Source: Hyphomicrobiales bacterium (lineage in GTDB: Bacteria; Pseudomonadota; Alphaproteobacteria; Rhizobiales; Methyloligellaceae). Taken from it: DNA of 32,521 nucleotides. Of this stretch, positions 20,274 to 27,441 are shown one piece after another. Under the pieces are notes generated by a model, which was not told the DNA's origin, made no database searches, and saw only the letters and a program-made list of their open reading frames with translations. The DNA lies in the NCBI GenBank assembly GCA_003228955.1, contig QIGN01000030.1, positions 1 to 32,521 on the forward strand. Direction: 5' to 3'. The position numbers and the translations under genes were made by a program. Positions within the stretch are counted from its first letter, which is position 1; the number at the start of each line of letters is the position of its first letter.

Positions 20274-21070
20274 GCGCACGCGGAACCTTGATCGCGCTGA
20301 AGGCCATCGCCTGGATATGGGCAGCGCTCACCAGCTCCGCGGCGCTGGCGGCCGGCGAGCAGATCGAATCCGACATCTCATCGCGCAATATCGCCATCGA
20401 ATCAAATTTCACCGGTGAGCGCATCGTCATTTTCGGCACCATAGAGAAGGCCAAACACGCAGAATTCGAGATCTCGCCTTACGACATTATCGTGGTAATT
20501 CGCGGCCCCGAAGGACCGGTTGTGACCCGCCGCAAGGCGCGGGTGGCCGGCATCTGGATCAACCGGGATTCCCACACTTTCAAGAGTGTGCCCGGCTATT
20601 ATGCGGTGCTCGCCACGCGCGATCTCAAGGCCGTTGCCAAACCGGATATACTCAACGCCAACGGGATCGGGTTCCAGAGCCTCGAATTCACAACCTTCGG
20701 GGTGCAGAACAACGCCGCCCTGGACGCGGGGCTGAATGCATTCAGATCCGCCGCCGTCAGGATAAAGCAAAAAGACGGCTTGTATCTCTACGATCCCAAA
20801 GGCGTCAAATTTGTCGGCCGGAGCCTGTTCCGCGCGACGGTCGATCTTCCCGCCAACGTGCCCGTCGGCGCCTATGCAACGGATGTCTATCTGCTGCGCG
20901 ATGGCAAGGTGCTGAGCCACAACCGCTCCAATCTCACGATCGACAAACAGGGCTTTGAGCGTTTCGTGTACTCCGCCGCCTTCGACTACCCGCTGCTCTA
21001 CGGCATCATCGCGGTCATCATCGCGGTCACCGCCGGACTGCTCGCCTCGGCGCTCTCGCGGCGGGACTAG
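20270..21070 (+). CDS. TIGR02186 family membrane-anchored periplasmic protein
   Basis: 266 residues. A signal peptide (1-27, cleavage near ALAA), a beta-rich periplasmic domain (about 30-230), and one C-terminal transmembrane helix (about 243-262) ending in ALSRRD. Matches the TIGR02186 family found next to TauE-type transporters in Alphaproteobacteria; the molecular role is unknown, perhaps an accessory subunit of the transporter. The ATGA overlap with tauE fixes the start. Its last 46 codons recur at 22481-22621, and its stop codon forms the first bases of a RIME-like repeat. Confidence 0.9.
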   Translation: MSARGTLIALKAIAWIWAALTSSAALAAGEQIESDISSRNIAIESNFTGERIVIFGTIEKAKHAEFEISPYDIIVVIRGPEGPVVTRRKARVAGIWINRDSHTFKSVPGYYAVLATRDLKAVAKPDILNANGIGFQSLEFTTFGVQNNAALDAGLNAFRSAAVRIKQKDGLYLYDPKGVKFVGRSLFRATVDLPANVPVGAYATDVYLLRDGKVLSHNRSNLTIDKQGFERFVYSAAFDYPLLYGIIAVIIAVTAGLLASALSRRD

Positions 21071-21172
21071 ATCGCTTCATGTTTTGATGGAATCAAAACC
21101 GCGATCTAGCTCTTTGTTTATGCGTATCATTTTTCCGATAACCGGTACCCACTTATCGGTGATACGCTCTAG
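21067..21172. repeat. RIME-like palindromic intergenic repeat, copy 2
   Basis: The more complete copy. The outer stem CTAGATCGC (21067-21075) pairs with GCGATCTAG (21101-21109) around the inner hairpin GTTTTGAT-gga-ATCAAAAC. A second hairpin follows, with outer arms GCGTATCA and TGATACGC and inner arms CCGATAA and TTATCGG. The element's first bases include the stop codon of the TIGR02186 gene. It is about 90 percent identical to the copy at 2521-2612. Confidence 0.8.
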
Positions 21173-21205
21173 GCGCTGTTCGCATAAATGAGGCGTGAAC
21201 GGCAG

Positions 21206-22354: not shown

Positions 22355-22480
22355 TAATTGCCCCCCAGCAGGCAGTTGCCCTTGTCAGTATTCAATATAT
22401 TTTGGGCACTCACGTCCGTTTTTGCAAGTCATTTCACCCGAGCCGGACGCAATTGCGCAAAGCTGTGGCGATTCCACCAC

Positions 22481-22621
22481 AATCTCACGATCAGCAAGCA
22501 GGGTTTTGAGCGTTTCGTGTATTCCGCCGCCTTCGACCATCCGTTGCTCTACGGCATCATCGCGGTCATCATCGCCGTCACCGCCGGACTGCTCGCATCG
22601 GCGCTCTCGCGGCGCGATTAG
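22481..22621 (+). pseudogene. Truncated duplicate of the TIGR02186 gene 3' end
   Basis: 46 sense codons plus TAG, aligned without gaps to 20930-21070. Of 141 nt, 12 differ; eight changed codons are synonymous and only two change the residue (D to S, Y to H). It encodes the C-terminal membrane anchor only. The excess of silent changes indicates that both copies evolved as functional coding sequence before this one was cut, so it came from a diverged allele or paralogue rather than from recent copying. An open frame extends back to 22358, but that part has no similarity to the family. Confidence 0.85.
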
Positions 22622-22651
22622 GCCGCTGCAAACCAGGCCGGCATCACCGTT

Positions 22652-25921: not shown

Positions 25922-25939
25922 CATGTGCCGCATCACATG
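25922..25939. promoter_or_regulatory. Palindrome CATGTG-N6-CACATG
   Basis: A perfect 6-bp inverted repeat separated by six bases, one base before the FNR-type box. The half-sites resemble those read by CRP/FNR-superfamily regulators, but the spacing is shorter than the classical CRP site. It could be a second regulator site for the downstream operon. Confidence 0.35.
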
Positions 25940-25940
25940 T

Positions 25941-25982
25941 TTGACGCAGATCAATGCATGCCGGCGCCAATGGGCGTTTAAA
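25941..25982 (+). promoter_or_regulatory. FNR/FixK-type box and promoter of the membrane-protein operon
   Basis: TTGACGCAGATCAA (25941-25954) matches the TTGAT-N4-ATCAA consensus at 9 of 10 positions. If it sits at the usual class II position centred at -41.5, transcription starts near 25989 and the -10 hexamer should lie at 25977-25982; TTTAAA is found exactly there. The first gene starts at 26046. This predicts activation under low oxygen (FNR/FnrN/FixK) or by a related Nnr/Dnr-type regulator. Confidence 0.65.
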
Positions 25983-26045
25983 AAACTCATCAAGGAAGAT
26001 TGCCACAGAAATTGCAGGTGCAAATTCGAAAAGTGAGGCGATGAT

Positions 26046-26552
26046 ATGCTTCCTCGAAAGTACAGCATTCCCAGATTCGCAAACCCGACCCGCATGTGGT
26101 CCGCCGGGGCGACAGCGGGTCTTGCCGGCGGCGCCGTCGAGATTTCCTGGATAGCAATTTACCAAAATCTCTCCGGCGGCAACGCAGCAACTGTAGCCGC
26201 CGGTGTCACTCAGTCGCTGTTTCCGGAGCTTGCGACAACGGCTGCCGCGGTGCCCCTAGGTATCGCCATACATTTGGGGCTCGCGATCCTGCTTGGAATT
26301 GCGCTCGCCGTTTTCGTCCATTCACTGTTGCCACGTTCGGCCCCGGCGGTGCTTGAGCCTGTTGCCGTGATCGGACTGCTAATTGGCATCTGGGTAATAA
26401 ATTTCTTCCTCATATTGCCGGTGATCAATCCCGCATTCGTCACGCTCGTACCCTACGCGGCGAGCTTGACCTCCAAGTTGCTTTTCGGAGTCGCGGCGGC
26501 GCTGGCATTAAAGCTCTTTGACGGCCCCCTACCCTTCGCCGGGCAGGAGTAG
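26046..26552 (+). CDS. Unknown four-helix membrane protein (first of trio)
   Basis: 168 residues with about four predicted transmembrane helices (17-40, 66-93, 106-126, 140-158). Helix 1 is Ala/Gly-rich (AGATAGLAGGAVEISWIAIY) with an embedded Glu, and helix 2 carries His76. I do not recognise a family. It is the first gene after the FNR-type box, with GAGG seven nt before the ATG. Two more small membrane proteins follow at 15- and 18-nt gaps, so the three probably act together at the inner membrane. The stretch is less GC-rich than the surrounding chromosome. Confidence 0.75.
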   Translation: MLPRKYSIPRFANPTRMWSAGATAGLAGGAVEISWIAIYQNLSGGNAATVAAGVTQSLFPELATTAAAVPLGIAIHLGLAILLGIALAVFVHSLLPRSAPAVLEPVAVIGLLIGIWVINFFLILPVINPAFVTLVPYAASLTSKLLFGVAAALALKLFDGPLPFAGQE

Positions 26553-26567
26553 AGAAGGAGATATGAA

Positions 26568-27026
26568 ATGTCCAAGGAACTGATTTTATTGCTCCACCCG
26601 ACTTTCGGAGTTCTTGCGATGATCGCCGCGGTATGGGTGTTCGTCGAGGCGCTGAACGCGAGCGATGCGAACATCGCCAGGCTTCGCGGCGCGAGCGTGC
26701 TTTCGGCCATCCTGATGTGGCTTGCCTACATCGTGGGAGGCTACTGGTACGTGGTATTTTACGGCGGCGACAAGGCGCTTATCAAAGCCGGTCCGTGGCC
26801 TTTCGCGCACAGCTTCTTCATGGAGACCAAGGAGCACGTGTTTTTCATGCTTCTCCTGCTCGCCATGTTTCTGCCCATCGCTGCTTACGGCGATGTCGTG
26901 AAGAAAAAGGTGACGCGAAATCTGGTCCTGTGGACCTCCGCGCTGGTGGTCCTCATTGGTCTCGCCATGGAAGGCGCGGGCGCATTTATCAGCATGGGCG
27001 TCAAAGTCGCCCTGACTGCCAGTTAG
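26568..27026 (+). CDS. Unknown four-helix membrane protein with conserved-looking His (second of trio)
   Basis: 152 residues with four predicted transmembrane helices (about 5-27, 42-63, 89-108, 119-145). His10 lies near the start of helix 1 (LLLHPTFGVLAMI). His81 and His90 flank the entry to helix 3 (PFAHSFFMETKEHVFF). Paired His at helix ends in a four-helix protein is a pattern seen in b-type cytochromes, but heme binding is only a possibility. No named family is recognised. The ribosome site GAAGGAGATATGAA is close to ideal, suggesting high expression. Confidence 0.78.
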   Translation: MSKELILLLHPTFGVLAMIAAVWVFVEALNASDANIARLRGASVLSAILMWLAYIVGGYWYVVFYGGDKALIKAGPWPFAHSFFMETKEHVFFMLLLLAMFLPIAAYGDVVKKKVTRNLVLWTSALVVLIGLAMEGAGAFISMGVKVALTAS

Positions 27027-27044
27027 ATGAAAGGAGCAGGGACT

Positions 27045-27365
27045 ATGGCCAAGGATCAAACGATTGCGGATGATACCGTCAGCGCCAAAGTGGCCGGATA
27101 CGGTGTTTCCTATGCCATCACCAGCATTTTGAGCGCACTCCTCGTCATGCTCAAGGAAACCAATGAGAGTGTGATGGGAGCTCTGGTTTCAATCACCGGG
27201 CACCATTGGATCACGCAGGGTCTCCTGAATGTGGTCCTGTTCGTTGTGCTCGGCGCTTTGCTAAGCCGTCGTGAAAAGGGCATGAGCGGCAACGCACTCA
27301 TCTCGACAGTTGTCGGCGCGACCGTCCTGAGCGGACTGATTGTCGCCGGGTTCTTCATTCTTTGA
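27045..27365 (+). CDS. Unknown three-helix membrane protein (third of trio)
   Basis: 106 residues with about three predicted transmembrane helices (14-33, 57-78, 86-106). A His-His-Trp (GHHWITQ) lies just before helix 2. The last helix runs to the C-terminus (GFFIL). No named family is recognised. ATG 27045 (MAKDQTIAD) is preferred because AAAGGAG lies 8 nt upstream; an ATG six codons earlier is possible. A stable hairpin follows 19 nt after the stop. Confidence 0.75.
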   Translation: MAKDQTIADDTVSAKVAGYGVSYAITSILSALLVMLKETNESVMGALVSITGHHWITQGLLNVVLFVVLGALLSRREKGMSGNALISTVVGATVLSGLIVAGFFIL

Positions 27366-27384
27366 GGAACGCGTATGGCGGCAG

Positions 27385-27409
27385 GGGCGCCCTCCTGAGG
27401 GGGGCGCCC
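27385..27409. terminator. GC-rich hairpin between convergent genes
   Basis: GGGCGCCCTCC (27385-27395) and GGGGGGCGCCC (27399-27409) form an 11-bp stem with one T-G wobble and a three-base loop. It sits between the end of the membrane trio and the end of the TPR gene and could stop transcription from both sides. There is no T-run. Confidence 0.6.
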
Positions 27410-27441
27410 TCCTGTGAGGGCGATCCAGGGTATGAACGCGG

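Follow-up and report, generated by a model that had tools for sequence, protein, structure and literature searches.

The question raised by this locus is what three small membrane proteins, encoded one after another behind a putative oxygen-responsive promoter, may do. The locus lies in the window, which here means the whole stretch of 32,521 nucleotides analysed. The initial annotation had read it as an FNR/FixK-controlled operon of proteins with no recognisable family, which would form an unnamed inner-membrane unit induced by low oxygen or nitric oxide. The features of the locus, and what each assignment is based on, are as follows.

25941-25954, + strand: FNR/FnrL/FixK-type box TTGACGCAGATCAA; sequence match, conserved in relatives, identical, on the other strand, to a ChIP-supported Rhodobacter capsulatus FnrL site
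25977-25982, + strand: -10-like hexamer TTTAAA, 22 nt past the box; class II geometry
26046-26552, + strand: protein 1 (P0001), 168 aa, multi-helix membrane protein, accessory and upstream of the pair; predicted
26555-26560, + strand: AAGGAG ribosome-binding site of protein 2; sequence
26568-27026, + strand: protein 2 (P0002), 152 aa, four-helix membrane protein; homologues, alignment and model
27030-27036, + strand: AAAGGAG ribosome-binding site of protein 3; sequence
27045-27365, + strand: protein 3 (P0003), 106 aa, approximately three membrane helices; homologues, alignment and model
27384-27410, + strand: closing hairpin with a 12-bp G+C stem, without a T-run; folding

Operon layout and probable FNR-type control

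The gene arrangement was confirmed as first described, with three adjacent genes, the two ribosome-binding sites and small intergenic gaps of 15 nt (genes 1 and 2) and 18 nt (genes 2 and 3). Since homologues occur in many phyla, the three ORFs were regarded as real genes. The ATG after AAAGGAG gives protein 3 its 106 aa; an alternative start at 27027, which gives 112 aa, is possible. The hairpin that had been said to close the operon proved to be real, the region 27363-27440 folding at -40.7 kcal/mol (z -2.8). Lacking a T-run, it does not qualify as a canonical intrinsic terminator, and the intrinsic-terminator listing contained none at this position. The genes beside the operon encode MatE, a TPR protein and an enolase-superfamily enzyme. 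The MatE gene, 5' of the operon, is conserved within the genus, and the similarity of relatives to the window ends at the MatE end. Dispersed direct repeats were also seen in the window, one of 151 nt (20929-21079 and 22480-22630, 90% identical) and one of 111 nt (2505-2615 and 21063-21173, 86% identical); pieces of them match a sister genome locus (L189) as well, and they may belong to a genus-wide repeat element.

The box and the TTTAAA hexamer were found exactly where they had been reported, with 32 bp from centre to centre, as in class II promoters (-41.5 / -9.5). TTGACGCAGATCAA is the sole TTGA-N6-TCAA site within the whole window. In the shuffled window, 0.22 sites were expected and at least one site occurred in 21 of 100 shuffles; one such box in the window, taken alone, is not significant. 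The box of the window is significant because it is conserved across related loci. A recurrence of TTGA-N6-TCAA upstream of related loci was indeed observed, a perfect box lying within 300 bp 5' of the first gene in 10 of 66 non-redundant loci, compared with a shuffled mean of 0.44 and a maximum of 4 (the first-gene starts of L021, L022 and L023 were placed manually). The region 5' of protein 1 aligned poorly among the relatives apart from the box, which was perfect in L020, L021, L022, L023 and L040. Moreover, a -10-like hexamer was located exactly 22 nt past the box in the window (TTTAAA), L020 (TATAGA), L022 (TATATA) and L023 (TATAGA). All 10 box-bearing loci belong to Proteobacteria; among them are Marinobacterium, a gammaproteobacterium (L024 and L025, the latter from M. 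rhizophilum DSM 18822), and Collimonas, a betaproteobacterium (L046, strain OK242). Among the 66 loci, no perfect FNR box was present near the operon outside Proteobacteria; therefore, low-oxygen control of the pair of proteins 2 and 3 is not universal. In the upstream regions from Verrucomicrobia, delta-type bacteria, Kaiserbacteria, Sulfurimonas and Bacillota, ribosome-binding sites were seen and no common operator.

On the other strand, the same 14-mer (TTGATCTGCGTCAA) is an FnrL recognition sequence of R. capsulatus, which has ChIP-seq and RNA-seq support; in the part of that study cited here, ccpA and speB1 are listed with this 14-mer, and ccpA was activated 3.8-fold (PMC4634722). The genome of the window (about 3 Mb, 194 contigs) contains 42 TTGA-N6-TCAA sites, compared with 18 for the reversed control pattern. 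It also encodes a four-Cys FnrL (G000:C131) with C-x2-C-x7-C plus a fourth Cys. One box adjoins the fnrL gene itself, and another lies just 5' of a hemN-like gene; such gene names were read from the sequence, with the exception of the HTH_Crp_2 match. FNR-type boxes were also noticed near Sco-like and RegB-like genes of the same genome (G000:C108, around 4941 and 7847; L092). FNR/FixK-type control of the operon, as the initial annotation had proposed, is strongly supported, because the box and its -10 spacing are conserved in relatives, the site is identical to an R. capsulatus FnrL site, and FnrL and its boxes are present in the genome.

Distribution of the pair and its accessory protein

When 84,980 species genomes were scanned for protein 2 by a pattern-based method, 67 loci were obtained, and a further search gave 2 more copies, which were duplicates of loci among the 67. 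A single-sequence search placed protein 3 after protein 2 in 68 of the 69 loci; with a profile it was found in all 69, the Heimdallarchaeota copy being truncated by its contig end. Proteins 2 and 3 are thus neighbours in each of the 67 distinct loci. The pair is carried by Alpha-, Beta- and Gammaproteobacteria, delta-type bacteria, Campylobacterota, Verrucomicrobia, Bacillota, Neomarinimicrobiota, Kaiserbacteria and one Heimdallarchaeota bin. Some of these carriers are bins from metagenomes and may be misassigned. The pair is rare: among 385 evenly sampled alphaproteobacterial genomes, proteins 2 and 3 occurred in the same 2, with one extra marginal partial match for protein 3. Within the genus, the pair was found besides the window only in G007, elsewhere in the genome and beside a Crp/Fnr-type regulator. 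In the tree, most phyla were grouped, and the Proteobacteria and delta groups were split. The patchy occurrence and the changing location suggest that the pair has been horizontally transferred. A plasmid search gave no match, and a literature search on the genus bin found nothing. In L109 (G103), a second alphaproteobacterium with the pair, the genes sit between NifX-like and ZIP-like genes, with no FNR box within the 3.3 kb examined.

Protein 1 was found only directly 5' of the pair, in the window and in nine other loci, one of which is a duplicate. It is restricted to some Proteobacteria and occurred in one of the 385 alphaproteobacterial genomes, which is one of the two pair carriers. Since protein 1 is only ever beside the pair, we regard the pair as the unit and protein 1 as an addition. 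The unnamed inner-membrane unit first suggested for all three proteins therefore holds for proteins 2 and 3, which are adjacent in all lineages, but not as a universal trio. The conserved residues of protein 1 are E32, H76, N119 and K144, and its model (pLDDT 87, pTM 0.79) matched nothing in the PDB above Z 5 by Foldseek/VIA, the best being Z 4.9 (3.2 A, 105 residues).

In Kaiserbacteria and related bins, another membrane protein of 164-191 aa precedes the pair (L079 4478-4972, with equivalents in L080-L085); one such protein gave no Pfam match. ApbE or flavodoxin-like genes lie near the pair in some of these bins. When the neighbours of the pair were clustered, the recurrent ones were lineage-specific only. 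A secreted-looking protein of 243-283 aa adjoins the pair in nine loci, mostly of Verrucomicrobia (e.g. L039 5828-6610), and the one tested had no Pfam match.

Conserved residues and candidate functions

That the proteins belong to no recognisable family was upheld: neither the three proteins nor their alignments gave a credible match in Pfam, NCBIfam, PHROGs, PADLOC or the PDB sequences, and no homologue of known function was found for the pair. Proteins 2 and 3 were modelled by AF2 as one chain, the in-frame TAG between the genes being read as Gly within a short linker; 22 other loci were read through likewise, as a modelling device that implies no readthrough. The single-chain model (pLDDT 90, pTM 0.61) shows four helices in protein 2 and about three in protein 3. 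Foldseek/VIA returned generic helical-bundle matches only, and a structure search of a viral library gave nothing significant.

The conserved His residues noticed at the outset are real in the 70-row alignment. In protein 2, H10, I72, H81, M85, E86, K88, E89, H90 and G138 are identical in all 70 rows, and Y61 is also listed among the invariant residues. In protein 3, H54 is kept in 70 of 70 rows, W55 in 69 and H53 in 67, and E38 and K37 are nearly invariant. By their numbering, the invariant polar residues of protein 2 lie on one membrane side, at the start of helices 1 and 3 and the end of helices 2 and 4. The K+R content favours a periplasmic location of this side, because it is higher in loops 1-2 (2.65) and 3-4 (3.09) than in the N-terminus (0.25), loop 2-3 (2.05) and the C-terminus (1.40). 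By charge, the topology of protein 3 is ambiguous. A pair keeping the same histidines across such distant microbes points to a membrane unit, so far uncharacterised, that would bind a metal or heme, and a redox or transport unit would be plausible from these sequences.

The reading that we tentatively prefer, at a little short of an even chance, is an FnrL-induced inner-membrane pair in which a His-liganded metal or heme would serve redox or metal-related work when oxygen is low. It was chosen because the structure matches are generic, HemJ kinship was not found, NosZ is sparse among the carriers and metal-related neighbours recur. The three genes would form one operon, which the O2-sensing FnrL would turn on at low oxygen by acting from the class II promoter. 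Proteins 2 and 3 would form an obligate inner-membrane complex, with protein 1 as a probable accessory subunit of the proteobacterial version. The invariant His, Glu, Lys and Met residues at the helix ends, presumably on the periplasmic side, would most likely bind a cofactor, either a b-type heme or a copper/iron ion, and the complex would take part in electron transfer or in the handling of metals when oxygen is scarce. A broader statement, that the pair is the core of an undescribed membrane metallo- or hemoprotein complex which has spread horizontally across bacteria and into one archaeal bin, acts in periplasmic redox and came to be FNR-controlled in Proteobacteria, we hold to be rather doubtful. 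Kaiserbacteria are not known to have a respiratory chain, and a purely respiratory role fits poorly since they carry the pair.

The pair may instead be a small unit for copper/iron transport or resistance and not an electron carrier, with low oxygen being relevant through the changed redox state of the metals (Cu(I), Fe(II)). The invariant H81-x3-M85-x4-H90 of protein 2 would suit such a unit, as may the neighbours in several loci: a P-type ATPase with an HMA domain and a cupredoxin near the pair in L028 (L029 is similar), a P-type ATPase and a multicopper oxidase in L076, VIT1 in L024, Metal_resist in L032, ChrB in L036 and, by sequence reading only, VIT1 in L025, an Nramp-like gene in L055 and the ZIP-like gene of L109. 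However, the neighbourhoods vary widely, and no metal gene adjoins the operon of the window; we consider this function unlikely. The conserved His, Glu and Lys could alternatively be catalytic or lie in an ion path. An ion or proton path or a transporter without a cofactor would account for the charged residues conserved in the helices, including the four of protein 1, but the three invariant His of protein 2 and the HHW of protein 3 exceed, in our judgement, what such a path usually needs, and the structure searches matched no transporter fold, so that we regard it as quite unlikely.

Nnr/Dnr regulators likewise use boxes of the TTGA-N6-TCAA type, and BMS3Bbin10, a member of the genus, carries NosZ and has a gene for a Crp/Fnr-type regulator divergent to the pair; both observations are compatible with an accessory of denitrification or nitric-oxide metabolism under an Nnr/Dnr-type regulator. 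Nevertheless, only 11 of the 50 carrier genomes contained NosZ, and no Pfam or NCBIfam model, Nnr/Nor accessory families included, was credibly matched. Denitrification therefore does not appear to be the common theme, a denitrification-only role of the pair is not supported, and the wider accessory role is very unlikely. Likewise, the nitric-oxide induction in the initial annotation received no support, the FnrL found being of the O2-sensing Cys type. Protein 2 recalls HemJ in the His of helix 1 and the Lys of helix 3. A distant HemJ/DUF2269/SirB-type four-helix heme-binding enzyme would have the size and layout of protein 2, and three members gave weak SirB matches (best E 0.003); however, profile comparison with HemJ, SirB and DUF2269 gave a probability of 0.2-0.6%, compared with 42-81% when those three were matched with each other, which makes such kinship highly improbable.

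The His-liganded cofactor pair thus preferred is a two-gene membrane module without a family name, whose histidines are shared by carriers as distant as Proteobacteria, Verrucomicrobia, Bacillota and Kaiserbacteria. Since its low-oxygen switch can be tested and some carriers are in culture (Marinobacterium, Collimonas and Chelativorans), it offers a concrete entry to a low-oxygen function.

Comparison with known systems

Cytochrome oxidase subunit III was the commonest membrane fold matched by the model of proteins 2 and 3 in Foldseek (e.g. 7q21_E and 6wti_C, prob 0.97-0.99); however, these matches had E values of 0.55-0.83 (0.3-0.8 in the test of this fold), which are not significant, and four-helix bundles match widely. 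By VIA, the model aligned with 9qef_J at Z 11.6 (3.4 A, 136 residues), a score tied with those of unrelated helical bundles. HemJ (PF03653), DUF2269 (PF10027) and SirB (PF04247) share the four-helix size with protein 2; unlike them, protein 2 is always accompanied by protein 3, and no profile similarity links them. NnrS/NnrU and FixS/FixH-type proteins are small accessory membrane proteins under FNR-type control, and the operon proteins gave no Pfam match to any of these. The operon of the window also resembles the FnrL/FNR regulon operons of Alphaproteobacteria, with which it shares the class II spacing and a four-Cys FnrL in the genome. Its box is identical to an FnrL recognition sequence of R. 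capsulatus, whereas its proteins are none of the FnrL targets named in the cited part of that study (PMC4634722).
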